From: a virus
Reading direction: 5' to 3' (one strand)
Length of the DNA stretch: 29,687 bases
IMG/VR virus record: IMGVR_UViG_3300042691_051073
Location: 1 to 29,687 of that record
The translations under genes were made by a program, and so were the position numbers. Shown in pieces: positions 7 through 25,038 of the stretch. Positions within the stretch are counted from its first letter, which is position 1, and each line of letters begins with the position of its first letter. The notes under the pieces are model-generated. The model saw only the letters and a list, made by a program, of their open reading frames with translations. It was not told where the DNA came from and ran no database searches.

Positions 7-13
7 ATATATA
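7..13 (+). promoter_or_regulatory. Putative late promoter box ATATATA (copy 1)
   Basis: The sequence reads GAATATATAAAG and lies 24 bases before the ATG at 38. It is one of ten intergenic copies of ATATATA in the window and resembles the T4 late promoter box (TATAAATA) in composition and position. The promoter role is inferred. Confidence 0.5.
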
Positions 14-37
14 AAGACAGAAATATAACATATTACT

Positions 38-403
38 ATGCAGAACCTAAAACAAATGGAAGATTATAAAAAGGAAAGAATGTCTAAATCCCCTGTTGAT
101 GAAGCTCCTGTTGCTGATGATAATCTAGGCATGGAAGACACTGAGGACGGAGAAGATATGGATATGGACTTTGCGGAAGAGCCAACTTTCTCACAAGAGG
201 TTCCTGGACAAATAGAAATAGAGCCGAGTGAAGCTAAGCCCTATATGGTATTAGCAAATTTGAAGAAAATATGCGACCAGGCTAATCAACTAGTTTCTAT
301 GGTTCAAAGTTCTGGTAAAGTTGAGCAATGGGCAGTTGACCACATTACTACTTCGGCAGACGATATTGAGGAGGTTTATAACTATTACAAATACAGAGAT
401 TAA
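38..403 (+). CDS. Hypothetical acidic protein
   Basis: A protein of 121 residues, not confidently recognised. Residues 20-65 are strongly acidic and probably disordered (runs of D, E and M). Residues 66-121 form a compact, probably helical segment containing KICDQANQL and EQWAVDHITTSADDIEEVYNYY. This W...H/K-I-T-x-A-x-D-x-(V/I)-E-x-V-x-x-Y pattern is familiar from small domains in T4-like phage structural proteins, but I cannot name the family. A putative late promoter lies just upstream and a hairpin terminator follows at 427, so it looks like a monocistronic late unit. It could be a small virion or scaffold-type protein; that is a guess from context and acidity. Confidence 0.75.
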   Translation: MQNLKQMEDYKKERMSKSPVDEAPVADDNLGMEDTEDGEDMDMDFAEEPTFSQEVPGQIEIEPSEAKPYMVLANLKKICDQANQLVSMVQSSGKVEQWAVDHITTSADDIEEVYNYYKYRD

Positions 404-426
404 AAATATCTTACCTAATAATTAGA

Positions 427-453
427 AGCCTCGGAAACCCCGGGGCTTTTTTA
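427..453 (+). terminator. Rho-independent terminator
   Basis: AGCCTCGG and CCGGGGCT form an 8-bp stem with one G-T wobble around an AAACC loop, followed by a run of seven T. It closes the transcript of the gene ending at 403. Confidence 0.85.
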
Positions 454-456
454 TTG

Positions 457-469
457 TATAATAAATTAA
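457..469 (+). promoter_or_regulatory. Possible early/middle promoter element
   Basis: TATAATAAATTAA lies 9 bases before the ATG at 479 and directly after a terminator. A close variant, TATAATATTAAATTAA, precedes uvsX at 1847. The shared TATAAT core suggests a host-type -10 element for non-late genes. No -35 element was identified. Confidence 0.25.
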
Positions 470-478
470 AAATAAACC

Positions 479-748
479 ATGGCTGACAAGAATTTTAGGA
501 GAGTTAAGGACATTAGCCCAGATCTAGAAATTTACTACAGAAAGTATTTTGAAAGAAACGCTACCAAGTTTATCTGGAAATGGAATCTTAAGATGGCTGA
601 TCTCGAAGATACCTGGATTAGCGAGGATATTGAATACTCAATAATCGGACAGGTCAGCGAGCACACATTCATATTAAAAAGACTAGATGAAAATTCTAGA
701 TGGTTCGTTTCAGGAGAAAAGTTCGTAAGGGATTTCTCTAAAAAATAA
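479..748 (+). CDS. Hypothetical protein
   Basis: A small protein of 89 residues, rich in aromatic and charged residues (several W, Y, F and K), with no signal peptide or membrane segment. I do not recognise a family. The start follows an A-rich stretch (AAAAATAAACC-ATG). It follows the terminator at 427 and ends 8 bases before the DUF458-like gene at 757, so the two probably share a transcript. No catalytic motif is visible. Confidence 0.7.
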   Translation: MADKNFRRVKDISPDLEIYYRKYFERNATKFIWKWNLKMADLEDTWISEDIEYSIIGQVSEHTFILKRLDENSRWFVSGEKFVRDFSKK

Positions 749-756
749 AGGGGAAT

Positions 757-1233: not shown

Positions 1234-1240
1234 ATATATA
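1234..1240 (+). promoter_or_regulatory. Putative late promoter box ATATATA (copy 2)
   Basis: The context is TAGATATATAAGAC, 21 bases before the lipoprotein ATG at 1262 and outside the preceding gene, which ends at 1215. The spacing matches copies 1, 6, 9 and 10 (about 16-24 bases). Confidence 0.55.
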
Positions 1241-1862: not shown

Positions 1863-1871
1863 TTAGAAAAT

Positions 1872-3053
1872 ATGGCTAAAGAAAAATCAACATCCAAGAA
1901 AGAATTTTCATTCCTAGAACTCGATAAACAACTTTCAAAAATAGAAGGGTTTGAAGCTGGTTCAATTTTAGAAGAAAATGAATTTTCCGAAGTTACTGAG
2001 TGGATAGGAACGGGAAATTACGTTTTAAATGCACAGCTTTCCGGAAGTCTTTTTGGCGGAGTAGCTAATAACAGATCGATGGGAATAGCAGGCGATCCAC
2101 AAACTGGAAAAAGCTTTCTTTGTATGAATATAGTAAGAGAATCACAAAAGCAAGGATATAATGTAATCTATTGTGATACAGAGGGAGCCATCGATAGATC
2201 AATGGCAAAGAAATTTGGAATTGACACCAACACTGTAAGATATCAGCCAATTAAATCAATTTCAGATTTTAAAGTATTTGTTGCCAATCTGGTAGATCAG
2301 ATTAAAAAACTTAGAAAAGATGGAGCAGATCCTAAAATTTTATTGGTTTTGGATTCTCTGGGGATGCTTACAACAATGAAAGAATCAGCAGATGCTTTAA
2401 AAGGTAAAACTGCAATGGATATGGGTATCAGATCCAAAGAAATGAGAGGGCTATTCAGAGAGATCACATTAGATCTAACCGGAGTTAGAATTCCTTTAAT
2501 TTGTACCAACCACACAACAACTGCTGGTATTGGAAGTTTTATGACGACCAAAGAAGCTTCCGGAGGTGACGGACCGATTTTCTCTATGAGTAATGTTATC
2601 ATGCTATCGAAAGCACAGCTTAAGGATAGCAACGATAAGAAAACCGGTATCATCGTTACATCGACTCCCAAGAAAACAAGATTTACAAGACCATATCCAA
2701 CAAAATTCCACATTTCTTTTATCAATGGTATGAATCCGTATGTTGGTTTGGAAGAGTTTGTTTCTTGGGACATTTGTGGAATCGAAAGAGGAAAATTGGA
2801 GGTAGATAAAAAAACAGGCGAATTAGAATTCACCGCTAGTGCATCTTCCACAAAATGGGCAATTGCTCATTTGGGTAAATCTATATTCTCTTCACAATTA
2901 TTCACGCCTGAAGTCTTTACAGAAGAGGTTTTAAGAAAAATAGACGAAAAAGCAATTAAACCTCATTTCTTGTTGCCTGATTTATTCGACATGAATGAAC
3001 TGGATGCTATAGTTAACGGTGAAGAATCAGACGAAGAAGATGGACAAGAATAA
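1872..3053 (+). CDS. uvsX: UvsX RecA-like recombinase
   Basis: A strand-exchange ATPase of 393 residues, close to T4 UvsX (about 390). It would polymerise on single-stranded DNA for recombination-dependent replication and repair. Walker A is GDPQTGKS at residues 74-81, followed by VIYCDTEGAID (98-108), which carries the conserved acidic residue of RecA-type ATPases. Walker B is ILLVLDSLG (156-164). The DNA-binding loop region TNHTTT...EASGGDGPIF runs from 212 to about 237, as in UvsX. The C-terminus is acidic (ESDEEDGQE), as in RecA-family proteins. It leads an operon with the gp41 helicase, the T4 uvsX-40-41 arrangement. Confidence 0.95.
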   Translation: MAKEKSTSKKEFSFLELDKQLSKIEGFEAGSILEENEFSEVTEWIGTGNYVLNAQLSGSLFGGVANNRSMGIAGDPQTGKSFLCMNIVRESQKQGYNVIYCDTEGAIDRSMAKKFGIDTNTVRYQPIKSISDFKVFVANLVDQIKKLRKDGADPKILLVLDSLGMLTTMKESADALKGKTAMDMGIRSKEMRGLFREITLDLTGVRIPLICTNHTTTAGIGSFMTTKEASGGDGPIFSMSNVIMLSKAQLKDSNDKKTGIIVTSTPKKTRFTRPYPTKFHISFINGMNPYVGLEEFVSWDICGIERGKLEVDKKTGELEFTASASSTKWAIAHLGKSIFSSQLFTPEVFTEEVLRKIDEKAIKPHFLLPDLFDMNELDAIVNGEESDEEDGQE

Positions 3054-3330
3054 ATTAAAGATGAAATATCACATGGGTATCTGGAAAGAACTTCCAGATT
3101 ATCCACGTGAGGAAGATGTGATTTTTGAATTAAATTCTTATCTAGTTAGAGATGGTCGACCACAGGGAGAATTTTCAGAACAGACCTTCAATTCTTTTTT
3201 ACCCAATGATTGGGAATCTAAAAAACACGGAGAAATAATAAAATCTTTGATCGAAAAGGGAATTTTTGAGCGACAGAAGTCTAAAGGAAATAAGACCGTT
3301 TATAAGATTAAAGATAACCCTCACTATTAA
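3040..3330 (+). CDS. Small hypothetical protein between uvsX and 41
   Basis: A basic protein of 96 residues. Residues 45-96 look like a small winged-helix unit: helix (SEQTFNSFL), helix (HGEIIKSLIEKGIFER), then a basic hairpin (QKSKGNKTVYKI). I cannot assign a family. The start at 3040 overlaps the uvsX end by 14 bases; in-frame alternatives are 3019 and 3061, the last removing the overlap. It sits where T4 carries gene 40 between uvsX and 41, but no similarity to gp40 is claimed. It may bind nucleic acid or a helicase partner; that is inferred. Confidence 0.75.
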   Translation: MDKNKLKMKYHMGIWKELPDYPREEDVIFELNSYLVRDGRPQGEFSEQTFNSFLPNDWESKKHGEIIKSLIEKGIFERQKSKGNKTVYKIKDNPHY

Positions 3331-3335
3331 TAATT

Positions 3336-4640
3336 ATGGTTAATTCACATTTAGAGAACGTATGGTTTTGTAGCATAATTTCTGATCCAATTTACGTGGA
3401 AGCTGCTAAACCTTCTTTCTTTAAGGATGTCAGATATCAGGAATGTTTTAAAATAGTCAAGTCATTTTGGAAAAAATATTCACAACTTCCTTCTACCCAG
3501 CAGGTTAAGGAAATTGTTAAGATGTTAAAGCTGAACGACAAACTTCCAGAATCACAGATTGATGTTATCTTCGACATTAAGCTTAATGACTATGATTCCG
3601 AATGGCTAAAAGAAAACACAGAAGCCTGGATAGAATGGAAGAATCTAGAGCAAAGTGCGATGGATTCTATTTCATACATTAAATCAACTGAGGTTTCCCC
3701 CGAAAATATCAAGGATGTAGTTAACACTTTTAAAACCATTATTAACGAAAGAAACAGCCTTGACTTTTCTTTTGATCTTGGATTGGATTTCACTGATCCC
3801 GAAAATCACAAACAACCCAAATCTAATACATTCTCTTCCGGGTATGATTTTATTGATATTTGTCTTGGCGGTGGATTTTCTGCCAAAAACCTTTATGTTT
3901 TTCTAGGTCAACCTAAGGTAGGAAAAACTCTATGGCTAGGAAATATAGCAGCACAAGCAATCAGGGCTTCAAATAATGTTGCGATTATAACATTGGAACT
4001 TAACGATCGCAAGTATATGAAAAGGGTAGGAGCTAATCTTCTTGGCATCAAAATGTCAGAATATAATAATGCGACAGAGGACGGGGAACTGATCAAGAAG
4101 AAAATTAGAAATCTAACTTTTGATAACCTGTCAGTTCCAGGCCAGCTTTACGTAAAGGAATTTGGTACTAGCCAGGCATCAGTTCTAGATGTTGAAAAAT
4201 GGCTCAGAAAGGTTGAAGAAGTCAAAGGTATTAAGTTTAAGATAGTAGTCATAGACTACATTAATATCATGAAGAACTGGAGAAATCCAAACACAGAGAA
4301 CACCTACATGAAGATTAAGCAAATAGCGGAGGATCTAAGAGCGATGGCACAGAGAAATAATTGGTCCGTTATTACAGCAACACAAACCAAGCAATCTGAA
4401 TTCGATGCTACAGATCTTTCCATGAATTCGGCTTCAGAATCATCTGGACTTGTTGCAACAGTCGATGGTATGTTTGGTATTATTCAAGATCCACTGATGT
4501 ACTCCAATAATGAATATAAATTAAAGGTACTAGCTAATAGAGATGAAGGATATAAAAATTCTTATAAAAAATTCCTCGTTGATTATAGCTTTATGAGGAT
4601 CTCCGAAGATCCCAACTCCCAAATAATGAATGAGTCTTAA
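3336..4640 (+). CDS. 41: Replicative DNA helicase (gp41/DnaB-like)
   Basis: A DnaB-family helicase of 434 residues (T4 gp41 is 475), which would move 5' to 3' on the lagging strand as a hexamer. The N-terminal 140 residues are helical, as expected for the primase-interacting domain. The RecA-type core starts with SSGYDFIDICLGGG (167-180). Walker A is GQPKVGKT (191-198), followed by VAIITLELND (215-224), where the conserved Glu is expected. Walker B is IVVIDYIN (303-310). A sensor-like ITATQTKQSE (346-355) and a late arginine-rich stretch (ANRDEG, 400-405) complete the core. It follows uvsX in the operon and overlaps the next gene at TAATG. Confidence 0.92.
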   Translation: MVNSHLENVWFCSIISDPIYVEAAKPSFFKDVRYQECFKIVKSFWKKYSQLPSTQQVKEIVKMLKLNDKLPESQIDVIFDIKLNDYDSEWLKENTEAWIEWKNLEQSAMDSISYIKSTEVSPENIKDVVNTFKTIINERNSLDFSFDLGLDFTDPENHKQPKSNTFSSGYDFIDICLGGGFSAKNLYVFLGQPKVGKTLWLGNIAAQAIRASNNVAIITLELNDRKYMKRVGANLLGIKMSEYNNATEDGELIKKKIRNLTFDNLSVPGQLYVKEFGTSQASVLDVEKWLRKVEEVKGIKFKIVVIDYINIMKNWRNPNTENTYMKIKQIAEDLRAMAQRNNWSVITATQTKQSEFDATDLSMNSASESSGLVATVDGMFGIIQDPLMYSNNEYKLKVLANRDEGYKNSYKKFLVDYSFMRISEDPNSQIMNES

Positions 4641-5098
4641 TGAAACAGAAAAAACTAATTGAAGAGGAAGAGAAGAAAGAAATAGAATTACCCGCTCAGG
4701 ATTCAACGTTTGAAGAATACCTACATATAGATGATGGAAGTAGAGATTATCATTCATTTAAAACTAGCAAGGATAATGACGATGAAAATTACAGGCATCT
4801 ATCAGCATTAAACACTTTAGTTTATGAAATTTTTCACAGATCTAGATGGTGTGCTTTGGGACCGAATAAAAAAATACCTAAGGACTTGATCCCATTTTTA
4901 TTTCAAGATCTATTAGAAGAAATGGAAGGTACCGAATTTAGTATGGTAGAAAAATTTGTTACTATATGTGATTTCATGAACGTGGGATATCAGAAAGCTT
5001 ACGAGCTAATACACATGAAATACAAAGAAATTATTGTTAACGAAATGGATCAAAAATTTGGAATTGTTTCCAAAAAGAAGATCAAGAAAATATTCTAA
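4640..5098 (+). CDS. Hypothetical protein in replication operon
   Basis: A protein of 152 residues, unrecognised. Residues 1-60 are acidic and low in hydrophobics (KKLIEEEEKKEIELP), while 60-152 are helical with conserved-looking aromatic positions (RSRWCALGPNKK, FVTICDFMNVGYQKAYELIHMKYKEIIV). The C-terminus is basic (KKKIKKIF). Its ATG overlaps the helicase stop in a TAATG junction and it ends directly before the gp47 start at 5099, so it is translationally tied to both. A role as helicase or nuclease accessory factor is possible but cannot be shown from sequence. Confidence 0.8.
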   Translation: MKQKKLIEEEEKKEIELPAQDSTFEEYLHIDDGSRDYHSFKTSKDNDDENYRHLSALNTLVYEIFHRSRWCALGPNKKIPKDLIPFLFQDLLEEMEGTEFSMVEKFVTICDFMNVGYQKAYELIHMKYKEIIVNEMDQKFGIVSKKKIKKIF

Positions 5099-6193
5099 AT
5101 GGATTCATCAAAGATTAAAAGGGTTTGGATGATAACAGATACCCATCTGGGTGTCAGAAATAGCTCGGAAGAGTGGATCCAAATCATGAGAAAATATTTT
5201 TTTGAATGGTTTATACCTTTGGTTAAAAAAGAATATAAGCCTGGTGATGCTTTAGTTCACTTGGGTGATGTTTACGACTCCAGACAAAGTATTAATCTCA
5301 AGGTATTAAACTTGTGTGTTGAGATCTTTAGTGAACTCTCTAAGATTTTTCCCGATGGAGTATATGTAATTTTAGGAAATCATGACTGCTACTCCAAAGA
5401 ATCTAATGACATTAATTCTCTTAGTTCTCTAAAATGGATTCCTAATGTGAAAATATACGAGGAGCCTGAAAGTATTAAATTGGGGACTAGAAAAGTTCTC
5501 ATGATGCCGTGGAGAACTAGCGAAGAATCCGCGGTTGAGCTACTTTCTGAAGCGGAAGAACACGATTATCTTTTCTGCCACAGCGATATTAAAGGACTTA
5601 GCTTTAATAAATACACAAAAATAGAGGAAGGAATTGGCTATAATAAGCTGGAAAATTTCAATCGAGTTTATTCTGGGCACATCCATTACTCTCAAAATTT
5701 TGGTAAGGTTAGAATGCTAGGATCACCCTATCAACTAACTAGATCCGATATGGATAACAAAAAGGCAATACTTTTACTTGATCTGTCAACAGAGGAAGAA
5801 AAGCTATTCGAAAACGATTTTTCTCCTAAATTTATCCGAATGGGGTTTGATCGGGTTCTGGAAAAAACTCCTTCAGAACTTAGTGAGATTTTTAGAAACA
5901 ATTTCGTTGATATTTTAATAGACCCAAAACTAGCAGTAAAGGCTTCTCTTGGGATTTTAACTGAAATGGTGTCAACACAGTTAAAAACAAACTTCACACC
6001 AATAACAGAAAATCAGGCAGAACAAAATGTAGAGGAAACATTGTTCAACCTAGATGGTAAGAATTTTTCCATTATAGATTTTGCTGATCAATATATCGGT
6101 GCTTTGGATGAACCAGACGAAGTTAAGGAGAGAATGAAAAAAACAATAAAAGTTCTCTATAATAGAATAGCTCACAAAGAGGAAAAAGAATGA
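5099..6193 (+). CDS. 47: gp47-like recombination nuclease subunit (SbcD/Mre11)
   Basis: A metallophosphoesterase nuclease of 364 residues (T4 gp47 is 339), the Mre11/SbcD partner of gp46. The motifs appear in order: DTHLG with Asp14 and His16; HLGDVYD with Asp57; LGNHD with Asn94, His95 and Asp96; FCHSD with His161; and GHIH at 193-196. These are the metal-binding residues of the family. The C-terminal third would form the capping and gp46-binding part. The stop overlaps the gp46 start (ATGA), as expected for a complex whose subunits are made together. The complex resects DNA ends for recombination-dependent replication. Confidence 0.93.
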   Translation: MDSSKIKRVWMITDTHLGVRNSSEEWIQIMRKYFFEWFIPLVKKEYKPGDALVHLGDVYDSRQSINLKVLNLCVEIFSELSKIFPDGVYVILGNHDCYSKESNDINSLSSLKWIPNVKIYEEPESIKLGTRKVLMMPWRTSEESAVELLSEAEEHDYLFCHSDIKGLSFNKYTKIEEGIGYNKLENFNRVYSGHIHYSQNFGKVRMLGSPYQLTRSDMDNKKAILLLDLSTEEEKLFENDFSPKFIRMGFDRVLEKTPSELSEIFRNNFVDILIDPKLAVKASLGILTEMVSTQLKTNFTPITENQAEQNVEETLFNLDGKNFSIIDFADQYIGALDEPDEVKERMKKTIKVLYNRIAHKEEKE

Positions 6194-7854
6194 GATTATC
6201 AAAAATAGAATGGAGAAATTTTGCTTCCTATGGAAATAAAATACAATCTCTAACTTTCGGGGATAACCCTGGATTATATTTAGTAGTAGGAGAAAACGGA
6301 GCAGGTAAATCCACAATATCCGACGTTATAACTTTCGGTCTTTATGGTAAACTCGACGGGAAAAAACTAAAGGATATTCCTAATAGAATTAACGGAAATG
6401 CTTGGGTGAAAATAACTTTCTTAGTAAATGGGGAGGAATATTCAGTTGAGAGAGGTTTAGATCCCTCAATTTTTAACCTATATGTTAATGGATCATTATA
6501 TGATAAGGCTGGTTCTAGGTCAGTACAGGACTATTTAACCGATGATATAATCCAAATTCCTAACTACGTTTTTAACAATACAATTTCTTTATCAATTAAT
6601 GATTTTAAGAGCTTCCTTAAAATGTCTCCGTCGGATAAAAAATCCATCATTGATAAAATATTCGGATTTTATGTGATCAACGAAATGAGGGATCTTCTGA
6701 AGGAAGAAACTAAATCCATTCGAGAAAATTTGATCAGGATTTCGGGGGAAGTTGATTCTCTTTCTAAAACACTTAGCAGAACACAGGAAGAAATGGATGT
6801 TCTTTCTAAAAAGATTCTAGAGGTTTCTAAGGATAAGATAAGTGATTTGGAGGATAAAATTTCCAAATACAACCAGCTATTAGAAATACACAAAACAAAA
6901 ACCTCTGAATTTTCGAGATTAGAATCAGATCTCCAGGGGGAAACCAGAAAAGCATACAAGATATTAACAGAGTCTAAGGGATCGTTAAGAGGAGTGGAAG
7001 AAAAGATGAGACTTTATAATAACGATAAATGCCCGACATGCGCTTCAGATCTTTCTAGTATTTTTCATCAGGGAATAAAAGATGGACTACTTAAACAGAT
7101 CGATGATTTTAAAAAAGAAATTCTAGATGCTCAAAAAAATTATGATGATTGCTCTTCCAAAGAAGCAAATCTAAGAAAGGAAAGAGAGGAAATAAACACC
7201 AAAGGTAACAAGATTATAGTCAACATAAACTCTGCAAAAGAAGAACTAAAAAAACTAAAATCCGGTGCTTCCTCGGATGGAATAGATTCTCTTAAAAAAA
7301 TAGCAGAGGAGACAAGAAACAATATCCAGGGATTTACCGAAGAAAAATCTAAGGAGGATAAAAAAAGTGAGTGGCTTAAGAAGATAGAGGAAATCCTAGG
7401 GGAAAAAGGAATCAAGCAACTAGCGCTTAAAACCATTCTTCCTTCTTTAAATAACCATATAGCGGAATTAATGCAATCCCTGCATCTTTCATATACAGTT
7501 ACCTTTGACGAGGATTTTAATGCTTCTATCATCCATATGGGTGAGGATATATCAATTTCAACTTTAAGCACCGGAGAAATGAAGAAAGTTGATTTTGCTG
7601 TACTTCTTTCCGTTATAAAGCTGATGAAAATAAGATTCAGTAGCATAAATCTTCTATTTTTGGATGAAATTTTTAGTTCTGTAGATCCGGACGGGGTTTA
7701 CACGATTCTAAACACCCTCAGAAAAGTTTGTGATGACCACGGACTTAATGTTTTTGTGATCAATCACGCTCCAATGCCTACCGAAATTTTCGATTACAAG
7801 ATAGAAATTCAGAAAAGAAACAACTTCTCTGATCTTTTAATAGAGAAGGTATAG
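6190..7854 (+). CDS. 46: gp46-like recombination ATPase subunit (SbcC/Rad50)
   Basis: An SMC-like ATPase of 554 residues (T4 gp46 is 560). Walker A is GENGAGKS (34-41). Long coiled coils run from about 165 to 400, interrupted by the zinc-hook CPTC at 281-284. The ABC signature LSTGE lies at 459-463, Walker B LLFLDE at 488-493, a D-loop-like SSVDPDG follows, and the H-loop His is near 526 (VINHAP). All parts of a functional Rad50-type ATPase are present. It is the last gene of the replication operon and overlaps 47 by 4 bases. With gp47 it would process DNA ends and host or phage DNA. Confidence 0.93.
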   Translation: MRLSKIEWRNFASYGNKIQSLTFGDNPGLYLVVGENGAGKSTISDVITFGLYGKLDGKKLKDIPNRINGNAWVKITFLVNGEEYSVERGLDPSIFNLYVNGSLYDKAGSRSVQDYLTDDIIQIPNYVFNNTISLSINDFKSFLKMSPSDKKSIIDKIFGFYVINEMRDLLKEETKSIRENLIRISGEVDSLSKTLSRTQEEMDVLSKKILEVSKDKISDLEDKISKYNQLLEIHKTKTSEFSRLESDLQGETRKAYKILTESKGSLRGVEEKMRLYNNDKCPTCASDLSSIFHQGIKDGLLKQIDDFKKEILDAQKNYDDCSSKEANLRKEREEINTKGNKIIVNINSAKEELKKLKSGASSDGIDSLKKIAEETRNNIQGFTEEKSKEDKKSEWLKKIEEILGEKGIKQLALKTILPSLNNHIAELMQSLHLSYTVTFDEDFNASIIHMGEDISISTLSTGEMKKVDFAVLLSVIKLMKIRFSSINLLFLDEIFSSVDPDGVYTILNTLRKVCDDHGLNVFVINHAPMPTEIFDYKIEIQKRNNFSDLLIEKV

Positions 7855-7863: not shown

Positions 7864-7870
7864 ATATATA
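7864..7870 (+). promoter_or_regulatory. Putative late promoter box ATATATA (copy 3)
   Basis: The context is TTTCAAATATATAGGAAC. Only 5 bases separate the box from the ATG at 7876, so a T4-like start site would give a nearly leaderless mRNA. It marks the switch from replication genes to morphogenesis genes. Confidence 0.5.
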
Positions 7871-7875: not shown

Positions 7876-8202
7876 ATGGCTATCACATCAAGAAATGACC
7901 TTGAGAGGTTCACGTATTTCTTCGTTTCTAAAAGTGTCAAGAAATACCTATCTCCACTACCGATTATAGAGTTTCATGTCTATAAATTCGAAAATCCAGT
8001 TTCTGCTGAGAGAGGTAAAAAATATTTAAGAGACGAATTTACTTTAGACGTTTATCAAATAACGGATGAAGTATACAAAACAGAGTCTTTTGAACATCCC
8101 AAGTATAGAAACCAGAAAAACCAGTATATAAAGTTCAAATACATAGATATACCACTTAAAACTGTTCCTGTGGAGACCAGTAGAAATATAGAATTAGCAT
8201 GA
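7876..8202 (+). CDS. Hypothetical late protein
   Basis: A protein of 108 residues, unrecognised, basic and rich in aromatics, with alternating beta-like stretches (PIIEFHVYKFEN, FTLDVYQITDEVY, QYIKFKYIDIPLK). No membrane segment or signal peptide is seen. It directly follows a late box and overlaps the gp15-like gene by 4 bases (GCATGA), so it is probably co-translated with it and likely a tail or neck component or assembly factor. There is no other in-frame Met near the N-terminus, so 7876 is the best start even though the leader would be very short. Confidence 0.75.
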   Translation: MAITSRNDLERFTYFFVSKSVKKYLSPLPIIEFHVYKFENPVSAERGKKYLRDEFTLDVYQITDEVYKTESFEHPKYRNQKNQYIKFKYIDIPLKTVPVETSRNIELA

Positions 8203-9303: not shown

Positions 9304-9311
9304 ATATATAT
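9304..9311. promoter_or_regulatory. Palindromic late box ATATATAT (copy 4), possibly divergent
   Basis: It lies in the 32-base gap between the divergent genes starting at 9284 (-) and 9317 (+). Read leftward the box stands 19-20 bases from the minus-strand ATG, matching other copies. Read rightward only 5-6 bases separate it from ATG 9317. Because TATATAT is symmetric it could serve both strands. Confidence 0.5.
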
Positions 9312-14113: not shown

Positions 14114-14120
14114 ATATATA
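14114..14120 (+). promoter_or_regulatory. Putative late promoter box ATATATA (copy 5)
   Basis: The context is TTTGATATATAGATT, just after the terminase stop and 63 bases before the sheath ATG. It is the distal of two boxes in the 81-base terminase-sheath gap. A small hairpin (AGGACT-CCCGA-AGTTCT, 14131-14147) lies between them. Confidence 0.45.
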
Positions 14121-14159: not shown

Positions 14160-14166
14160 ATATATA
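14160..14166 (+). promoter_or_regulatory. Putative late promoter box ATATATA (copy 6)
   Basis: The context is AAAGATATATACAAG, 17 bases before the sheath ATG at 14184. A second box 46 bases upstream suggests a strong, doubled promoter for this highly expressed protein. Confidence 0.55.
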
Positions 14167-17100: not shown

Positions 17101-17555
17101 CTCAGGATGATAGAGATTTCTTAGAACCCTTTGGATTCAACCCAATCATCAGAAAGAGAAATATTGGATTGGTAATATTTGGTAACCAAACAGGATATCA
17201 AAGAACTAACTCAGCATTTAATAACTTGCACGTTAGAGATCTTCTAATTACTCTTGAAGAAAGTGTTGAGGATATTCTTTCGAATTACGTATTTGATTTT
17301 AACGAAGATTCAATCAGACTTGAAATTAAAACTATCGTAGACAATTACTTAAGCGGCGTTAAAAACGTTGGAGGTATCTATAACTACTTAACTATTATGG
17401 ATTCTTCTAATAATACTCCTGCTATCATAGATCAAAACTTAGGAATTATCGATATCATTCTCGAACCTGCTAGAGGTATTCATAAGTTTATCAACAGAGT
17501 AACTGTTACAAGAACTGGTGGTATTGCTTCTGGAGGTTTCATCCAATTCAGTTAA
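14184..17555 (+). CDS. 18: Contractile tail sheath protein (gp18-like), enlarged
   Basis: The main contractile tail subunit, 1123 residues against 659 in T4 gp18. The N-terminus has the sheath-type opening: KSSGVYTLEFDAS, then RLVVGFSNKGPFNTPVYVPD and a FGDIDRAL segment (about 10-80). The C-terminal 250 residues hold the conserved polymerisation core: DDRDFLEPFGFNPIIRKRNIGLVIFGNQTG (about 970-1005), the LHVRDLLITLEESVEDIL helix, and the terminal RVTVTRTGGIASGGFIQF strand used for inter-subunit contact. The middle (about 330-830) carries extra beta-rich, Ser/Pro/Gly-rich insertions likely to face outward. Two late boxes precede it and the tail tubes follow, as in T4. Confidence 0.92.
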   Translation: MAKKLTLDLSVFKSSGVYTLEFDASENIVVNPQTVRLVVGFSNKGPFNTPVYVPDVQTAIKVFGDIDRALEKKGSFFHRSIFTCLNSGPVFALNLLKLNNSVTTSDDPDVANGADVARYRTFSVDTAESNGTNSTDEYTKVNANLPKQDKLVSSYYNKEKFWFPDPNMLLATIDVTEQSKLFSLVNLSQNPVSVIVKKSLDARLPIKGFDITAQEYFGASNVPNFMNPYDYISDYFVDVIVVSGNWTKYQELSLDPIYSSYFTSKGFVKAQIDNFLALKEVNVVLTVTGCLIPDFVDQNGITQYIKTLINNQVGQTGVLCAVNEEALDDLSSGDYSYIDLVGHHLTGALNPANPEINEIDFLSYSSPLTADFTYTQNSNTITDLDSPYSDLIEIGTTFVDAFGSPSVDGVFEEDFAAYSSTNLDSGLPYLQTNFLGADATSRKNALKNFLAVTATSPASKFIIGKVTGNISGNVEAKKAFSANDIVKLKVEEVKEVTVSPGNVQLRIKWSHPLFKAASPLVSPYYRTNIGGSHYQFCKADYFDRFDPIETSPGPLGSPTPINPQTLGNYTYFGYAESKLFLDHKNGLISDGDVIYKAYDGSSVQYLKFENSVDRDGFETVEMKSYVDADFTTEEAAVSLGVSYKTSSTGSSDTVDSDEVNIVSIAGNLNQFVNVISVISTNQVEVSVTEVAATSLKVGDLLVSQDVDQFENAVGNKLNRLTRIIESKKVAVPGSPGNYTIYVKTDRPILLYSGANARVNKFRPIHQFVETYKISYLPGFQLKTSHKPNGSDDRLDEILDVLTTTNISKTLADRNIITFRYVVDTFDGQIQTNSKHQLAKLAKDRQKCLAIINAPSMEKFKDSIDPRFTDAPSATEPAPLLRAKYIAEGGNLELNPSFRFTLPDEDSGAKFCGVFGPFLTIRENGKNFNIPPAAHVSNNFIRKFVTGEPYSIVAGQKRGVLSGSNLVGLEYDFSQDDRDFLEPFGFNPIIRKRNIGLVIFGNQTGYQRTNSAFNNLHVRDLLITLEESVEDILSNYVFDFNEDSIRLEIKTIVDNYLSGVKNVGGIYNYLTIMDSSNNTPAIIDQNLGIIDIILEPARGIHKFINRVTVTRTGGIASGGFIQFS

Positions 17556-17579: not shown

Positions 17580-17586
17580 ATATATA
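17580..17586 (+). promoter_or_regulatory. Putative late promoter box ATATATA (copy 7)
   Basis: The context is GGAAATATATAAAATAAAAA, 9 bases before the ATG of the first tail tube gene. It lies in the 40-base sheath-tube gap and would allow tube transcripts beyond sheath read-through. Confidence 0.5.
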
Positions 17587-17595: not shown

Positions 17596-18168
17596 ATGGC
17601 AGGATTACCACATTATACGTCTTCGAAAGCAGCAGTAAACAAATTTGAACCGATCTATACGAATCAGTTTGAAGTTGTTATTACTCCACCTGCTTCCGTA
17701 GTTCCCCCTCAGGGAAATCCTAATAATGGCAACATTCTTTTAGAGCACGTAAAAAGTGTAGAAGGATTGGGTGTTGATCAGAATCCAGGAGAAATAGCTC
17801 AGCAATATAAAAATGCTAAGAGATATTACTCCGGGGCAAAACCTAGCCAAACTGGATTTGATCTAACGATCAACTTTGAGGTAAACCTAGACGAAAATAA
17901 TTCAATGTACGTTTTTAAAACAATGAGACAGTGGGCGGATTTAATTTACAATCCACTTACGGGAGCTCAGGGTTTGAAAAGAGATTATACTGGTACCATA
18001 GTAATTAGTGCATTTAATAAGGCAGGTGACGTTTTTAGAAGAATCACATGTAAAGACTGCTTTCTTATGGCAAGTTTAACACCTATGGATCTTAACTACA
18101 CTAACACTCAGATATTTAGTTTGAGAGCTCAGTGGGCAGTAGATTACTTTGATGACGTATTTTTATAA
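17596..18168 (+). CDS. 19: Tail tube protein, copy A (gp19-like)
   Basis: A tail tube subunit of 190 residues (T4 gp19 is 163). It opens MAGLPHYTSSKAAV, followed by the tube fold: NQFEVVITPP (23-32), a central LTINFEVNLDENNSMYVFKTMRQWADLIYNPLTG, then VISAFNKAGDVFRRITCKDCF and a terminal strand ending VDYFDDVF. These strand and helix positions match the gp19/Hcp-like tube fold. It stacks into the inner tube through which DNA passes. The position right after the sheath is the T4 order. A clear paralog follows 14 bases downstream. Confidence 0.9.
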   Translation: MAGLPHYTSSKAAVNKFEPIYTNQFEVVITPPASVVPPQGNPNNGNILLEHVKSVEGLGVDQNPGEIAQQYKNAKRYYSGAKPSQTGFDLTINFEVNLDENNSMYVFKTMRQWADLIYNPLTGAQGLKRDYTGTIVISAFNKAGDVFRRITCKDCFLMASLTPMDLNYTNTQIFSLRAQWAVDYFDDVFL

Positions 18169-18779: not shown

Positions 18780-18786
18780 ATATATA
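18780..18786 (+). promoter_or_regulatory. Putative late promoter box ATATATA (copy 8)
   Basis: The context is TCGAATATATAAAAGG, ending 1 base before the terminator stem that starts at 18788. Transcription from here would start inside the hairpin, so the new transcript would carry only part of the stem and could escape termination, while transcripts from upstream would stop. Confidence 0.45.
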
Positions 18787-18787
18787 A

Positions 18788-18815
18788 AAGGCTTATCTAC
18801 CAATAAGCCTTTTTT
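18788..18815 (+). terminator. Rho-independent terminator after tail tube genes
   Basis: AAGGCTTAT and ATAAGCCTT pair perfectly over 9 bp around a CTACCA loop, followed by T6 (18810-18815). It ends the sheath-tube transcript. Confidence 0.9.
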
Positions 18816-19102: not shown

Positions 19103-19170
19103 ACTCTCACCCCGAATTTTATTTTAAACCTCCTACTACAAGTAAGGATAGATAAAATAGAATTGTTTTT

Positions 19171-20339: not shown

Positions 20340-20346
20340 ATATATA
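20340..20346 (+). promoter_or_regulatory. Putative late promoter box ATATATA (copy 9)
   Basis: The context is TTTAATATATAGAGG, in the 30-base gap before the TTG start at 20363, with 16 bases between. It sits immediately after the stop of the gene ending at 20332. Confidence 0.5.
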
Positions 20347-20362: not shown

Positions 20363-21853
20363 TTGGCAATAATTAATTCCGAACAGGTAGATGTTTTTAA
20401 CAAACAGCTCTCAGATAAAAAATCTGCAGATCCTTTATTGGGTAATGCTTCACAAGAAGCTCTTGATATTGCTATAGGGCAGGCAAGGGGTGAAGTTCTT
20501 CCTGGGAGTTTTGGAGCTGCTATGTTTGAAATTCCGGAAGGGAAGGATCCGAGTCAATATATTAATTCTATCACGGATAATATCGTTAGTACAGCAGTTG
20601 AAAACTTCAAGGGTCTTTCATATCAAAATCCAAAATATTTAAGCGGGTGGGTCCAAAATAGACCTTCATTTAAGGATTCTAACGCGTATAACGAACTTAG
20701 AACAATAACTAAAACTGAATTCAATACCATAGAAAACGGAATTGATGATCTGGAAATGGGGGAAAGTCCGGACTTCAATAACAAAGAGCTGAACAAAATT
20801 TCAAGTAATAATTTACAGCACATTTTAGATTCTACTGTTCTTAATTTTCTAAAAGAGATTGGGATACAAAGACAATCCGGGGCTGCTCCTAGCGATGAAT
20901 ATGTCATGAATAGCGCTAAAGAGGTTTTCGATTTTCTGGCTAAATCGTTAATTCCTCCTGCTCCTAAACCTGAACCGATACTCCCGCCTCCTCCCCCAGC
21001 TCCTACAGAACCAGCTCAATCCCCAGCAGCAGAAATCCCTGCCTCTGTTATCACCACACAACAAGAGATAGCCAAACCTGCTGAACCCACACAGGAAATA
21101 ACCCCCGCTACTGCAAATCCGCCGGTAACACAGACCCCTCCTGCTGCAAATCCCCCAGCGGAACCAACATCCACGGTAGTTCAACAAACACAGACGAATG
21201 TTACTAATGTTACAAATCAGGCTGCTGTGGAAGGTCCTAAAACATTTGATGCTGCTACTACCAAAGAATTCACTAAGGAAGAATCCCCTCTACTTAGTAT
21301 GTTAGGGGATCAATTAGGAATGAGTGCAGGAGAGATTGCTAACATGTTTGCCGGAGCAGATATTGCAACATTTGATCAAGCAATTGCTCAGAGCTTTGGA
21401 GGTGAATCCGATGCTATAAATCAAGCGACAGGAGAAATCCTTCAAAACCCCGATTTAGCAGCTAAAGCAAGTACCGTGGTTCAAAATTTAACACAAAATG
21501 AATCCGTTCCAACAGAAGCAAAAGAGCAAGTTGCAAATGTAGTGTCCCAGGCAACCCCAATGGTGGAACAAACCCCTGTTCCTCCAGTTGAACAACAACC
21601 TGCCACCCCTCCCCCACCATCTCCACAAACACCTGCACCCTCCCCACAGGAAGAACCTGAAAAAACCTCAGAAACTAAAGCTCAAGAGGAAAAACAAAAA
21701 TCTGCCGCTGAAGCTGAAACAAAAGCTGCAGATGAATCTAGGAAAGATGAAGACCAAAGAATCAATGGAGAATTACTCAAGACAATGAGAGAAATTTTAA
21801 AGGTTCTTCAAGGTCCACTAATCGTTACAGACAACACTCACAAATTTTCATAA
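20363..21853 (+). CDS. Proline-rich probable virion protein
   Basis: A protein of 496 residues starting at TTG (no suitable ATG nearby; the late box spacing supports it). Residues 1-200 are a folded, mostly helical domain. Residues 200-290 are a Pro/Ala/Thr/Gln-rich linker (PPAPKPEPILPPPPPAP and similar). Residues 300-385 form another helical block (LGDQLGMSAGEIANMFAG). Residues 400-465 are again Pro-, then Lys/Glu-rich. The end is RINGELLKTMREILKVLQGPLIVTDNTHKFS, a terminal helix-strand of a kind seen in phage tail proteins. The family is not recognised. The late box and position after the gp26-like gene suggest a tail or baseplate component, with flexible linkers tethering domains. Confidence 0.75.
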   Translation: MAIINSEQVDVFNKQLSDKKSADPLLGNASQEALDIAIGQARGEVLPGSFGAAMFEIPEGKDPSQYINSITDNIVSTAVENFKGLSYQNPKYLSGWVQNRPSFKDSNAYNELRTITKTEFNTIENGIDDLEMGESPDFNNKELNKISSNNLQHILDSTVLNFLKEIGIQRQSGAAPSDEYVMNSAKEVFDFLAKSLIPPAPKPEPILPPPPPAPTEPAQSPAAEIPASVITTQQEIAKPAEPTQEITPATANPPVTQTPPAANPPAEPTSTVVQQTQTNVTNVTNQAAVEGPKTFDAATTKEFTKEESPLLSMLGDQLGMSAGEIANMFAGADIATFDQAIAQSFGGESDAINQATGEILQNPDLAAKASTVVQNLTQNESVPTEAKEQVANVVSQATPMVEQTPVPPVEQQPATPPPPSPQTPAPSPQEEPEKTSETKAQEEKQKSAAEAETKAADESRKDEDQRINGELLKTMREILKVLQGPLIVTDNTHKFS

Positions 21854-21883: not shown

Positions 21884-21891
21884 TATATTTG
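21884..21891 (+). promoter_or_regulatory. Possible Bacteroidota-type promoter -7 element
   Basis: TATATTTG matches the Bacteroidota primary-sigma -7 consensus TAnnTTTG exactly, 19 bases before the ATG at 21911. A TTTG at 21866 is upstream, but with 14 bases between the elements, shorter than usual. It stands at the head of the deaminase-sigma-nuclease cluster, which lacks a late box. Confidence 0.35.
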
Positions 21892-22153: not shown

Positions 22154-22655
22154 TTTTTTTACTGAGCAAGATTCAAATAACTGTTTAGATAAAAAGCAGT
22201 TTAAGTTAGATCTTGTTTATCTCAGAATGGCAAAAGAATGGTCAACTAATTCTCATTGCAAAAGAAGTCAGGTTGGATGTTTAGTAGTCAAAGACAAAAC
22301 CATAATTTCAGACGGATATAACGGAACTCCAACAGGATTTCCAAACATTTGCGAAAATGAAATAAATGAAACCTTGCCTTATGTTTTGCACGCAGAAGCA
22401 AATGCTATAACAAAGCTTGCAAAAAATACGGTGAGTTCACACGGGAGCACGATGTATGTAACGCTTTCCCCGTGTTATGATTGCTCAAAATTAATTATTC
22501 AATCCGGGATTAAAAGAATCGTTTTCTGTGAGATTTACAGAAAGACTGATTCTCTCCAACTGCTAAACCAAGCTGGGATTGAAATTGTTTATATTAACTT
22601 ACATAACCCTTTAAACCAAGAACCAGATGGCAAAGAGCATTCAAGAATTAGCTGA
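22143..22655 (+). CDS. cd: Deoxycytidylate (dCMP) deaminase
   Basis: A zinc-dependent enzyme of 170 residues that would convert dCMP to dUMP, feeding dTTP synthesis (T4 Cd is 193 residues). The zinc site is complete: HAEANA with His83 and catalytic Glu85, and PCYDC with Cys111 and Cys114. The substrate-side motif VGCLVVKD (44-51) and GYNGTPTGF (58-66) are typical of dCMP deaminases. The TTG start at 22143 is used because the next Met (residue 29) would cut into the first conserved helix (MAKEWSTNSHCKRSQVG). Its 3' end overlaps the sigma factor gene by 29 bases. Confidence 0.92.
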   Translation: MENNFFTEQDSNNCLDKKQFKLDLVYLRMAKEWSTNSHCKRSQVGCLVVKDKTIISDGYNGTPTGFPNICENEINETLPYVLHAEANAITKLAKNTVSSHGSTMYVTLSPCYDCSKLIIQSGIKRIVFCEIYRKTDSLQLLNQAGIEIVYINLHNPLNQEPDGKEHSRIS

Positions 22656-23250
22656 AAAATTTTTAATGACATCCCAAGAGAAAGATTTTAAGTCTCTCTA
22701 TGATAGGATTAAACCAGGTTTACTTAATCACTGTAAATCAATCCTAATTGATGAAGAGGTTGCGCAAGATGCAGTGTCAAAAACTTTTGAAAAGATCTGG
22801 GTAAAAGTTGCCCAATATGATCCTTCTAGGGGAAATTTTTCCACATGGGCATATAACATAGCAAGAAACGAATCTCTGCTAATCAAAAAAAATTCGAAGA
22901 AATTTACTCCATTAGTTTATGAATCGATAGAATTAGATGGTAGAGATCATGATGAATTCATTCCTCTCTCTGATATAACCCCAGAGGATATTTTTGCTGA
23001 ACCAGAATGGGAAATAAATAATCAGGAAGGAGGCTTTGATGATCTATATGATACAGTCTTAGAAAAGATGAAACAGCTTCCTGCGATTTATAAGGATATT
23101 CTTATGGATCGGGAACTACATAAGATGAAGTATCAAGATATTGCTGATAAATACGGAATGAAAAAGAGAGCAGTTGCAACACGTATTAGAAGAGCTAGAA
23201 TAAAGATCAGGGAGATGTTTCCTGGAATAAAATTAAATTTTATCGATTGA
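22627..23250 (+). CDS. ECF-like RNA polymerase sigma factor, candidate late sigma
   Basis: A protein of 207 residues with the two-domain layout of ECF (group 4) sigma factors. Region 2 spans about 21-88, with EEVAQDAVSKTFEKIWVKV (core binding) and FSTWAYNIARNESLL (-10 recognition and melting). Region 4 spans about 143-197: LPAIYKDILMDRELHKMKYQDIADKYGMKKRAVATRIRRARIKI, a complete helix-turn-helix. An acidic linker of about 55 residues joins them. T4 uses gp55, a region-2-type sigma, plus gp33 for late promoters; here one protein carries both domains. It is the obvious candidate to read the ATATATA boxes, though this pairing is inferred. Confidence 0.9.
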   Translation: MAKSIQELAEKFLMTSQEKDFKSLYDRIKPGLLNHCKSILIDEEVAQDAVSKTFEKIWVKVAQYDPSRGNFSTWAYNIARNESLLIKKNSKKFTPLVYESIELDGRDHDEFIPLSDITPEDIFAEPEWEINNQEGGFDDLYDTVLEKMKQLPAIYKDILMDRELHKMKYQDIADKYGMKKRAVATRIRRARIKIREMFPGIKLNFID

Positions 23251-23251
23251 T

Positions 23252-23722
23252 ATGATAGATTTTTTAAAGGGATTAATCAGAATTTTTGGAGTTATTAGAG
23301 ACATTAGAAATTATCTATTTCTCCGTAGGGTAATTAAAAAGGAGCTGATGAATTCTCCGATATGGTCAAAAAACAATTTGAGGGTAGACTGGATTGGCAG
23401 AATTTACACAGTTATGAATTTACCACCCGAAGTGACAATGTCCCCAGATTTACCACGGGAGCTTTGGCCAGCTTATTTAATAGAACAATCGAAGGGATTA
23501 AATGAATATCTCACTTCTCTTAATCTTCATGAGATAATCATTCCTGAATATAAGGAGATTCCAGAAAGCAATTCATATCTTTTAGTTTATTATCCTTATT
23601 TCAGAGATCTAACAACCTGGTGGATTGCAAGTAGAACTATTTTTTGGACCACTGCTATCATCATTGAAAGCAAAACACAGTGGCTATCCCAAGCTTGGAC
23701 TTGGACAATATCATTATTTTAA
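23252..23722 (+). CDS. Hypothetical protein downstream of sigma factor
   Basis: A protein of 156 residues, unrecognised, starting 1 base after the sigma stop. The N-terminus is hydrophobic and basic (FLKGLIRIFGVIRDIRNYLFLRRVIKKEL), possibly an amphipathic membrane-surface helix. The rest is rich in Trp, Tyr and Pro (WIGRIYTVMNLPPEV, LWPAYLIEQSKGLNEYL, YLLVYYPYFRDLTTWWIASRTIFW), suggesting a compact beta-rich fold. Tight coupling to the sigma gene could mean a regulatory partner, but no anti-sigma motif is seen. Confidence 0.72.
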   Translation: MIDFLKGLIRIFGVIRDIRNYLFLRRVIKKELMNSPIWSKNNLRVDWIGRIYTVMNLPPEVTMSPDLPRELWPAYLIEQSKGLNEYLTSLNLHEIIIPEYKEIPESNSYLLVYYPYFRDLTTWWIASRTIFWTTAIIIESKTQWLSQAWTWTISLF

Positions 23723-23725
23723 AAA

Positions 23726-24472
23726 TTGACAAATCCTAATATTCAGAGAAAAAGCTATCCCTGGGGAAGAGCTTATGAGGTTATCACGGATCACCAGACT
23801 AAGCTGGTTCTTCCTTCCGTTACAACAGTTTTAAAGCTCCTTACTGAGCCTAAATTCCAACACTTGAGAGAAAAGTTCGGTAACGAGAAATGGCAGCAGA
23901 TACTGGATAAAGCATCATTCAGAGGAACAGTTATGCACTCGATGCTTGAACATTTCCTATTGGAGTATGCAGAATCAAAATCAGTGGATAAGAGTCTTCT
24001 ATCAGCTCAAAATATTGCTAAGGAAGAAGAAAAAAATTCACCAGACAAGTTGGATTTGATTGTGAGAGGTAGAGATCTTTTTTGGAATTTTTATCATGAA
24101 AAATTTTGGTCAGATATTAAATGTGTTCTTCATAACGAACTTTTTCTGTGGACAGATTTTAGAGGCGGATGGGCAGGAGCAACAGATTTTATTTTTCAAG
24201 ACTTTAATGACGAGCACGTGGTAATAGATTTCAAGTCTGCTAGCTCACCTAAAGATGAAGACGATATTGATTCCTATAAATGCCAAATTTCCGCATATAT
24301 GTTTGCTTATGCTGAGAGGTATGGAGTAATTCCTCACCGTGGGGAAATTTGGATTTCTAACGAAAAAAACTCTTCAATCCAAAGATTCATCGTTACAAGA
24401 GACGAGTTTAAAGAACATCTAAGAAAATTTCTGGATCTCTTGAAACAATTCAGGGAAATCCACTCTATTTGA
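23726..24472 (+). CDS. PD-(D/E)XK (Cas4/RecB-like) nuclease
   Basis: A protein of 248 residues starting at TTG. The PD-(D/E)XK nuclease motifs appear in order: RGTVMHSMLEHFL (67-78) with His71; Glu138 in LHNELFL; GWAGATDF (148-155) with Asp154; VIDFKSA (166-172) with Asp168 and Lys170; and the QxxxY-type motif QISAY (187-191). This matches the single-strand or end-processing exonucleases of the Cas4/RecB/AddB class, which T4-like and other phages often carry. A start at the next Met (residue 70) would destroy the first motif. It probably trims DNA ends in recombination or packaging; no iron-sulfur cysteine cluster is visible. Confidence 0.85.
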   Translation: MTNPNIQRKSYPWGRAYEVITDHQTKLVLPSVTTVLKLLTEPKFQHLREKFGNEKWQQILDKASFRGTVMHSMLEHFLLEYAESKSVDKSLLSAQNIAKEEEKNSPDKLDLIVRGRDLFWNFYHEKFWSDIKCVLHNELFLWTDFRGGWAGATDFIFQDFNDEHVVIDFKSASSPKDEDDIDSYKCQISAYMFAYAERYGVIPHRGEIWISNEKNSSIQRFIVTRDEFKEHLRKFLDLLKQFREIHSI

Positions 24473-24521
24473 TGAAACATTAGGTTTAAGAGGATCTAAA
24501 AATGAATATAAAAAATAAAAA

Positions 24522-24974
24522 ATGGCAGAAGAATTAATCACCGAAGTGGAAGTAGATCAAAAAAGAGTCGAAGAGCTACAATCAGCTCTTGACAAAAAAC
24601 AAAAAGAACTGAGTAATAAGGTCTATGGAGTATCTATGAATTCAAAAGATCTAGAGGTGTATAATGATATTGTTTCCTCTCTAGAATGGAGGGGAAAGGA
24701 AGCTTTAGGAATTTTAGAGATCACAAAAAAGCTCGACCAAATCAAAGAAGAAGGCATAAAAAGTGGAGTGATCTATATGAATGCTCTAGAAATCGAAGCA
24801 TCACATTATTTTCTAAATAAATTTTCAGGGAAGGGAAAAAGCCTAGCAAATGATTTTATCCGCATTTTTAAGGCATTCGAACAATCTTTGACCAATATTA
24901 GCCTAGATAATAAAGAGTTTGACGATCTAAAAAAGGATCTAGCAGCAGCTCAACAGGGCTTAGAATCTGAATAA
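24522..24974 (+). CDS. Hypothetical coiled-coil protein
   Basis: A highly charged, helical protein of 150 residues. Residues 10-35 (DQKRVEELQSALDKKQKELSNK) and 122-148 (NKEFDDLKKDLAAAQQ) are coiled-coil-like, flanking a more globular middle (YMNALEIEASHYFLNKFSGKGKSLANDFIRIFKAFEQSL). The family is unrecognised. The start has the same AAATAAAAA-ATGGCAG leader as both tail tube genes, suggesting strong translation. A clear terminator follows at 24997, so it ends the sigma-nuclease unit or forms its own transcript. Confidence 0.75.
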   Translation: MAEELITEVEVDQKRVEELQSALDKKQKELSNKVYGVSMNSKDLEVYNDIVSSLEWRGKEALGILEITKKLDQIKEEGIKSGVIYMNALEIEASHYFLNKFSGKGKSLANDFIRIFKAFEQSLTNISLDNKEFDDLKKDLAAAQQGLESE

Positions 24975-24996
24975 ATTCCGGGTTTTTAATCTTTTA

Positions 24997-25026
24997 GGGC
25001 TCACTTTATCAAGTGGGCCTTTTTTC
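24997..25026 (+). terminator. Rho-independent terminator
   Basis: GGCTCACTT and AAGTGGGCC form a 9-bp stem with one T-G wobble around a TATC loop, followed by six T. The next putative late promoter starts 6 bases later. Confidence 0.9.
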
Positions 25027-25031
25027 TGTGG

Positions 25032-25038
25032 ATATATA
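25032..25038 (+). promoter_or_regulatory. Putative late promoter box ATATATA (copy 10)
   Basis: The context is GTGGATATATAATAC, directly after a terminator and 21 bases before the ATG at 25060. It would drive the membrane protein and the whole fibre operon to the window end. Confidence 0.6.

Follow-up and report, generated by a model that had tools for sequence, protein, structure and literature searches.

ATATATA, where it stands before structural genes in the phage DNA analysed here (positions 1 to 29,687 of IMG/VR virus record IMGVR_UViG_3300042691_051073; this whole stretch of 29,687 nucleotides (nt) is called the window), is very probably a late-gene switch, a changed version of the T4 switch that appears common to many related uncultured phages. 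In the form [A/G]ATATATA it would serve as a -10-like late-promoter element to which a 118-amino-acid (aa) sigma factor of the gp55 family directs the host RNA polymerase late in infection, a reading that sequence comparison leads us to hold with considerable confidence. In T4 numbering the box would read A(-12)T(-11)A(-10)T(-9)A(-8)T(-7)A(-6), with transcription starting 6 nt past its end; since it has T rather than A at -9, it would be a variant of the T4-type late promoter and not a plain member. We infer both the reader of the box, the gp55-like protein, and the late timing. A late promoter had been proposed in a preliminary description of this DNA, and the proposal is supported by enrichment in six of six records, by a box before the tube gene at all 79 loci that show its start, by control runs on T4 and S-PM2, by the lack of a -35 element, by the classes of gene that carry the box, and by the presence of a gp55-family sigma.

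The ten plus-strand copies of ATATATA in the window lie exactly where the preliminary description placed them, and all ten are fully intergenic (genes taken by hand), a placement for which only 2.5% of positions qualify. The gaps make up 864 of 29687 bases (2.9% of the window), and weighting for their higher A+T gives p ~1e-12. Among the 35 arrangements of four A and three T, ATATATA is the only one that is wholly intergenic in the window; for all 35 pooled the figure is 42/288. The total on both strands is ordinary (12 versus 8.1 ± 3.5 in dinucleotide shuffles), which rules out a general excess: the signal is one of placement, not number. Two minus-strand sites, at 9305-9311 and at 12898, were absent from the preliminary description, and the latter lies inside the terminase gene. 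The purine described ahead of the box is there, the ten copies being split evenly between G and A (five each). The claim that boxes stand 16-24 bases before an ATG is true of some and not of others, which lie at 5, 6, 9, 63 and 76 nt, and the starts include GTG and TTG; in order along the window, box end and start codon are separated by 24, 21, 5, 6, 63, 17, 9, 76, 16 and 21 nt, the 76-nt case having a GTG of uncertain standing as a start and the 16-nt case a TTG.

Genome-wide tests were run on six long records, G001 to G006, comprising G001 (219,355 bases), of which the window is a near-identical fragment (29684/29687 bases), and five relatives. Counted against dinucleotide shuffles of the same gaps, a check called for by the preliminary description, upstream sense ATATATA occurs 267 times versus 43.6 expected and is enriched in every record (seen/expected 48/4.2, 59/8.9, 60/5.4, 33/11.5, 28/3.0 and 39/10.6 for G001 to G006); GATATAT and ATATATA are the top two enriched upstream 7-mers. 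Because ATATATA is enriched in gaps, restriction-site avoidance was ruled out as the source of the pattern. The words "strictly intergenic" do not carry over to whole genomes: coding DNA of the six records contains 87 sense copies, 23 of them no more than 30 nt from the next start. Around 169 boxes from four records the preceding base is G in 60% and A in 29%, the downstream DNA is A-rich (up to 0.65 bits), and no -35 element was seen, none of the 39 positions that precede the flanking base exceeding 0.29 bits. T at -9 dominates; ATAAATA, counted upstream in the six records at 64 copies in sense and 13 in antisense, is a minor form.

The box is conserved with the genes it precedes. Of 80 tube-gene loci fetched, 79 show the gene start and all 79 have the box, as do 37 of 37 distinct upstream sequences, in which the surrounding bases vary. 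Pooling four relatives, a box within 30 nt of a G001 gene is kept in 49 of 60 reciprocal-best-hit pairs, and a G001 gene lacking one has an orthologue with one in 13 of 208.

With exceptions, boxes mark mainly virion and lysis genes. A scan of 39 first-gene proteins of G001 (19 without a functional name; boxes counted within 30 nt) placed seven virion or lysis genes and two others behind a box, and three virion genes and eight others behind none, a modest association (one-sided p ~0.035, by hand). Those with a box include the sheath, collar fibre, neck-like (weak match), prohead protease, virion structural protein and endolysin genes and a weak holin match; those without include DNA polymerase, ligase, UvsX, single-strand binding protein, thymidylate synthase, methyltransferase, phosphoesterase and PhoH (boxes 91 and 93 nt away). 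The preliminary description had the UvsX run and the deaminase-sigma cluster without boxes, and indeed no ATATATA occurs in the run from UvsX to 7854 or before the cluster.

Late transcription of T4 is well described (PMC2988020, PMC7892883), and T4-type boxes are reported to span -13 to -6 with adenines at -12 and -8 (PMC1524935, PMC7892883). We ran the same pipeline on T4 and S-PM2 as controls, and also on MaF61, PTm1, PAU and LR756500. It recovers T4 TATAAATA (19 versus 1.9) and S-PM2 ATAAATA (24 versus 2.8), and in the phages whose promoters are less known it points to GATAAATA for MaF61, ATACATA for PTm1, TATACATA for PAU and GATATATA for LR756500. An ATAnATA frame is common to all phages compared, with -12 and -8 the same and -9 variable; the earlier view of the box as diverged from T4 TATAAATA is supported, the register being the same and T replacing A at -9. 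Like T4 (Straboviridae), the present phage has a -10-only element in that register at a short distance from virion genes, a gp55-family sigma, and antisense copies that are rare in genes. Unlike T4, which has A at -9 and T at -13 and keeps TATAAATA at least 13 nt from the start, it has T at -9, G or A at -13, some boxes only 4 nt away, a short gp55 without T4's C-terminal part, and no gp33 that the profile recognises. S-PM2 shares an F at the position of T4 gp55 H95 and differs by A at -9 and by boxes mostly 19-38 nt before the start. PTm1 and PAU share the frame and short gp55-like proteins (120 and 140 aa), and differ by C at -9 and by AGW in gp55 in place of KGW here; their ATACATA-type boxes number 40 sense and 6 antisense upstream in PTm1, and 47 and 2 in PAU. 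A change of the late box along with gp55 in a single clade has been seen before: Aeromonas phage Aeh1 is reported to have the late promoter CTAAATA and a diverged gp55, the change there being at -12 and here at -9 (PMC1524935). Published accounts also tell of a failed late-promoter search in pelagimyophages (PMC7029224) and of a cyanophage comparison that looked for T4-type late boxes (PMC3037559). We found no description of an ATATATA late box in the open-access literature searched, which leaves subscription journals largely outside.

The candidate reader lies in G001, beyond the window. The 118-aa protein matches phrog_234, the family of T4 gp55, at 6e-17, and the family is found in 6/6 records (E-values 1e-17 to 4e-13). 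In a PDB profile search the gp55 chain 7d7c_F (4e-7) is the sole significant match, the next being at 0.7, and the same chain is closest to the predicted model (predicted local distance difference test 85; template-modelling score 0.75, 1.9 Å). By profile and predicted fold, the protein belongs to the gp55 family and has sigma region 2 only. In the reported T4 structure Y97 stacks with A(-12), N13 and H95 belong to the shallow pocket that takes up A(-9), and T99 makes a bond to A(-8) (PMC7892883). Aligned to T4 gp55, the 118-aa protein keeps the DNA-pocket residues N13, Y97 (as F) and T99 (as S) and has F for H95; among the DNA-pocket and polymerase-binding residues compared, F86 (as F/Y), E70 (as D) and E77 are also kept. 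H95 was considered as the cause of -9 specificity and dropped, because S-PM2, with A at -9, already has F there, so that the change at H95 is insufficient to explain T.

The residues that follow the pocket vary with the -9 base: QRI in T4 and RRI in S-PM2 (A), AGW in PTm1 and PAU (C), and KGW here and in LR756500 (T). At 114 KGW loci (duplicates kept), upstream ATAnATA in sense orientation has T at -9 in 227 cases, A in 52, G in 15 and C in 7, and in antisense T in 15, A in 9, G in 12 and C in none; taken by locus, T has a clear majority in 27 and A in one, 73 are undecided and 13 have none. Among the KGW loci listed, L407 and the 5-kilobase (kb) L337 have no ATATATA. The AGW lineages are PTm1, PAU and L335, the last with only two sense and one antisense ATACATA. 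The relation between -9 base and gp55 segment is, on these alignments, a correlation over few independent lineages. Of the gp55-like proteins compared, that of PAU matches phrog_234 at 1e-6, and that of PTm1, which has no family at 0.01, rests on alignment and tblastn to KGW-type loci; the phrog_234 matches in PTm1 (E-value 0.006) and MaF61 (0.002) fall in a range where 7/14 control genomes also match (E-values up to 1). At 54739-55476 of MaF61 (loci L178-L186) lies a 245-aa protein with both ends gp55-like by eye and a long insertion between them.

The window carries a sigma gene of its own, and we consider it unlikely that this protein (22627-23250), rather than the gp55-like one, reads the box as a late or middle promoter. 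It is not a gp55 and resembles extracytoplasmic-function (ECF) sigmas: it belongs to phrog_1740 (T4 gp55 is in phrog_234), its best PDB match is SigW (3e-7), and it has regions 2 and 4. It is widespread where the box is, occurring in 9/9 close relatives and in 13/14 records that are less closely related and were selected by their KGW-type gp55, in most of which GATATATA before ATG stands well above a reversed-pattern control; the excess is weak in G010 (31 versus 16), G020 (12 versus 8) and G022 (7 versus 5). The protein has both regions, however, and ECF sigmas normally need a -35 element; none is seen by the boxes. The record G019 has the box (15, control 2) and no ECF-like sigma, although at 125 kb it may be incomplete, and PTm1 and PAU have the sister box ATACATA and gp55-like proteins with no match to the ECF-like sigma, PAU having another, longer sigma-like protein. 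Further sigma-like genes occur in G003 and LR756500.

Two other explanations concern the composition and position of the box. The preliminary description held that ATATATA is purged from coding DNA, and the depletion is real: ATATATA/TATATAT occurs 117 times in genes versus 527 expected, the lowest of 3319 7-mer pairs. A promoter-specific purge is not supported, since CATATATA, the form with C in front, is not enriched upstream and is just as depleted, and since phages with other boxes avoid ATATATA as well (coding observed/expected on both strands, ratios by hand: 0.43 T4, 0.52 S-PM2, 0.58 PTm1, 0.18 PAU, 0.36 MaF61); the depletion therefore cannot be credited to promoter function. By sense/antisense, the coding ratios are 0.58/0.09 for GATATATA, 0.17/0.10 for CATATATA, 0.25/0.17 for AATATATA and 0.14/0.14 for TATATATA, and a promoter would account for just one feature of these ratios, the strand asymmetry of the G form. 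These same depletions would be expected if the pattern were a by-product of AT-rich gaps, with alternating TA runs avoided in genes and tolerated between them, a view to which we give almost no credence: dinucleotide shuffling of the gaps themselves yields fewer upstream copies than are seen, and the G/A before the box, its direction, its preferred spacing and its conservation would go unexplained. That the box is instead a translation signal in mRNA, an AU-rich ribosome-binding enhancer, seems highly improbable. Such a signal would suit the 75/277 boxes that lie 4-7 nt before the start and the report that mRNA of Flavobacterium johnsoniae (Bacteroidota) is without Shine-Dalgarno sequences (PMC6847099), but the second peak at 15-22 nt, the copies as far as 129 nt from the start and the split between gene classes favour a promoter.

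Antisense avoidance in genes was also considered as a general mark of late boxes. It is clear in T4, where TATAAATA has 7 sense copies versus 8.9 expected and 1 antisense versus 10.9, so that avoidance is mainly antisense, and in S-PM2 (ATAAATA, 21 versus 28 and 3 versus 35), and GATATATA follows the same pattern in the present clade (0.58, 0.09); it is partial in PTm1 (0.89 sense, 0.53 antisense) and PAU (0.96, 0.43), and it fails in MaF61 (ATAAATA 0.52, 0.90) and LR756500 (ATATATA 0.37, 0.41). In coding DNA of PTm1, PAU, MaF61 and T4, some GATC-containing 7-mers (e.g. AGATCTT, TGGATCT) are strongly avoided, perhaps as restriction avoidance.

Several observations weigh against a gp55-read late promoter. 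Upstream antisense ATATATA is not rare (108 copies in the six records, 58 of them overlapping a sense copy). HNH nuclease and ATPase genes of G001 carry the box, while two baseplate genes and a collagen-like fibre gene (box at 67 nt) have none within 30 nt. The box at 18780 leads into a terminator-like hairpin, whose 5' arm it abuts (18780-18815), a layout repeated in G002 and seen at 2/426 boxes, these two cases; with a start 6 nt past the box, some of the stem would be missing from the transcript, which might thereby escape the terminator. The Foldseek E-value of the 118-aa model against 7d7c_F is modest (2.6e-3), and H95, R57 and D74 of T4 gp55 are not kept. The protein also lacks T4's C-terminal ~60 residues with the clamp-binding motif: the tail SLDFLYE, which we take to be the sliding-clamp-binding motif of T4 gp55, is absent, and in the close clade the protein ends in a short acidic stretch that is conserved (e.g. 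DDNQNFNV); comparison with the ends of other proteins was uninformative about a clamp-binding tail. Profiles for gp33 gave no match in 5/6 records (E-value 0.004 in the sixth, G005), and those for gp45 matched in none of the six. The same profiles miss PTm1, PAU and MaF61, and since gp33 orthologues and sigma factors are reported in a jumbo-phage group that includes PTm1 (PMC7824862), they are probably too narrow. Near or far spacing, finally, is not conserved (2/14 near-class pairs stay near, and orthologues swap), which, with the tube-gene box at 7-12 nt, weighs against a gene-specific role of near spacing.

That spacing is bimodal: from box end to start in the six records (n=277), one box lies at 0-3 nt, 75 at 4-7, 40 at 8-14 and 112 at 15-22. 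If the T4 start point is applied, a box 5 nt away puts the start codon at +1; the 4-7 nt class would give leaderless or nearly leaderless mRNAs and the 15-22 nt class leaders of ~10-17 nt. ATG is the start in 82/82 genes of the 0-8 nt class versus 108/119 of the 15-25 nt class (p 0.003), with a gene caller that favours ATG. Boxes at 0-8 nt number five in PTm1 and five in PAU, and GATAAATA of MaF61 begins at 18 nt. Leaderless genes have been inferred from a TA-like signal ~10-12 base pairs before the start, and Bacteroidetes/Chlorobi are reported among groups with some such genes, many Bacteroidetes genomes being neither Shine-Dalgarno-led nor leaderless (PMC3160421). In F. johnsoniae 87% of predicted transcripts are reported to have leaders >10 nt (PMC6847099), so that, should the host be of this kind, leaderless late mRNAs in large numbers would set the phage apart from it.

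A wider possibility, which we regard as rather doubtful, is a stripped-down late system across a broad uncultured phage group, in which a gp55 of only 118 aa (124 aa in LR756500), with no T4-type clamp tail and no recognised gp33, reads GATATATA, this box often lies close enough to the start codon for late mRNAs to be leaderless, the -9 base and the gp55 segment (QRI/RRI, AGW, KGW) switched together, and the replication clamp is possibly dispensable; the gp33 orthologues reported in the wider group (PMC7824862) make it less probable. Were it true, changes at a single base of the box and close to the shallow pocket for that base would have altered promoter specificity in evolution, and the T4-like dependence of late transcription on the replication clamp might be missing. 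The box could in any case serve as a late-gene marker for widespread uncultured T4-related phages, the natural series A, C and T at -9 with matching gp55 offers a test of sigma-promoter co-change, and the near boxes may be an instance of leaderless late mRNA in a phage.

Table 1. Putative late boxes and other features of the window and of record G001.
Feature	Coordinates	Strand	Remarks
Late box (AATATATA)	7..13	+	24 nt upstream of gene 38-403 (121 aa)
Late box (GATATATA)	1234..1240	+	21 nt upstream of small lipoprotein-like open reading frame 1262-1456 (by inspection)
UvsX and following genes	1872..7854	+	no ATATATA; UvsX by family search; 41, 47 and 46 are names from the preliminary description only
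Late box (AATATATA)	7864..7870	+	5 nt upstream of ATG, gene 7876-8202; near class, possibly leaderless
Two-faced box ATATATAT	9304..9311	both	plus face GATATATA, 6 nt upstream of gene 9317-11488
Upstream box (GATATATA)	14114..14120	+	63 nt ahead of sheath gene
Late box (GATATATA)	14160..14166	+	17 nt ahead of tail sheath gene 14184-17555
Late box (AATATATA)	17580..17586	+	9 nt ahead of tail tube gene 17596-18168
Box (AATATATA)	18780..18786	+	terminator-like hairpin 18787-18815 directly after
Late box (AATATATA)	20340..20346	+	16 nt ahead of TTG start, gene 20363-21853
TATATTTG	21884..21891	+	fits TAnnTTTG; ahead of deaminase-sigma cluster
ECF-like sigma, 207 aa	22627..23250	+	has regions 2 and 4 and lacks region 3; cluster not preceded by a late box
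Late box (GATATATA)	25032..25038	+	21 nt ahead of gene 25060-26430 (probable membrane protein)
Predicted gp55-family sigma, 118 aa	G001 109220-109576		3.7 kb beyond window; same phage by 29684/29687 bases

The phage itself is T4-related by its sequence matches. Matches to its terminase occur in 2499 phage records; the 40 that were listed have 28-40% identity and include phage PAU, Tenacibaculum phage PTm1, Flavobacterium phage MaF61, cyanophages and huge uncultured phages; family matches in the window are clear for sheath and UvsX and weak for tube and neck. Some of the terminase relatives, and only these, suggest a Bacteroidota host; a tube-protein search for the host in a genome collection of 84,980 species gave 34 pattern matches and no relatives.

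Some boxes have further features in their surroundings. Orthologues of gene 7876-8202 in three relatives have box distances of 5, 4 and 17. The minus face of the two-faced box is CATATATA, with the disfavoured C in front, and lies 20 nt upstream of the divergent minus-strand gene 8997-9284, whose orthologues in 2/2 relatives also have a box. The box at 25032..25038 sits just 3' of a terminator-like hairpin, and fibre-like genes come after the gene it precedes. The protein encoded at 11491-12288, just before the large terminase gene, ends in the acidic-hydrophobic LDEDLF, which strikes us as reminiscent of clamp-binding tails. The box-less baseplate gene at 19171 has GATAGATA at 19147-19154, 16 nt before its start, a possible weak box variant with G at -9.

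The match ahead of the deaminase-sigma cluster fits what we take to be the consensus of a Bacteroidota-type -7 element, TAnnTTTG. This occurs in 50/340 box-less gaps versus 10/191 box gaps, which leaves most box-less gaps unexplained by host-type early promoters. CATTTTnnATT, noticed by eye before some early genes, gave a weak signal in counts: in G001 it lies in 6 gaps in sense and in 1 in antisense, and the other records have 1 to 3 such gaps in sense. CATTTTT(T)ATT lies upstream of the box-less G001 genes at 60998, 65216, 114061 and 123889, in places followed by CGGGG or TAAATTTG, and may be an early or middle promoter.

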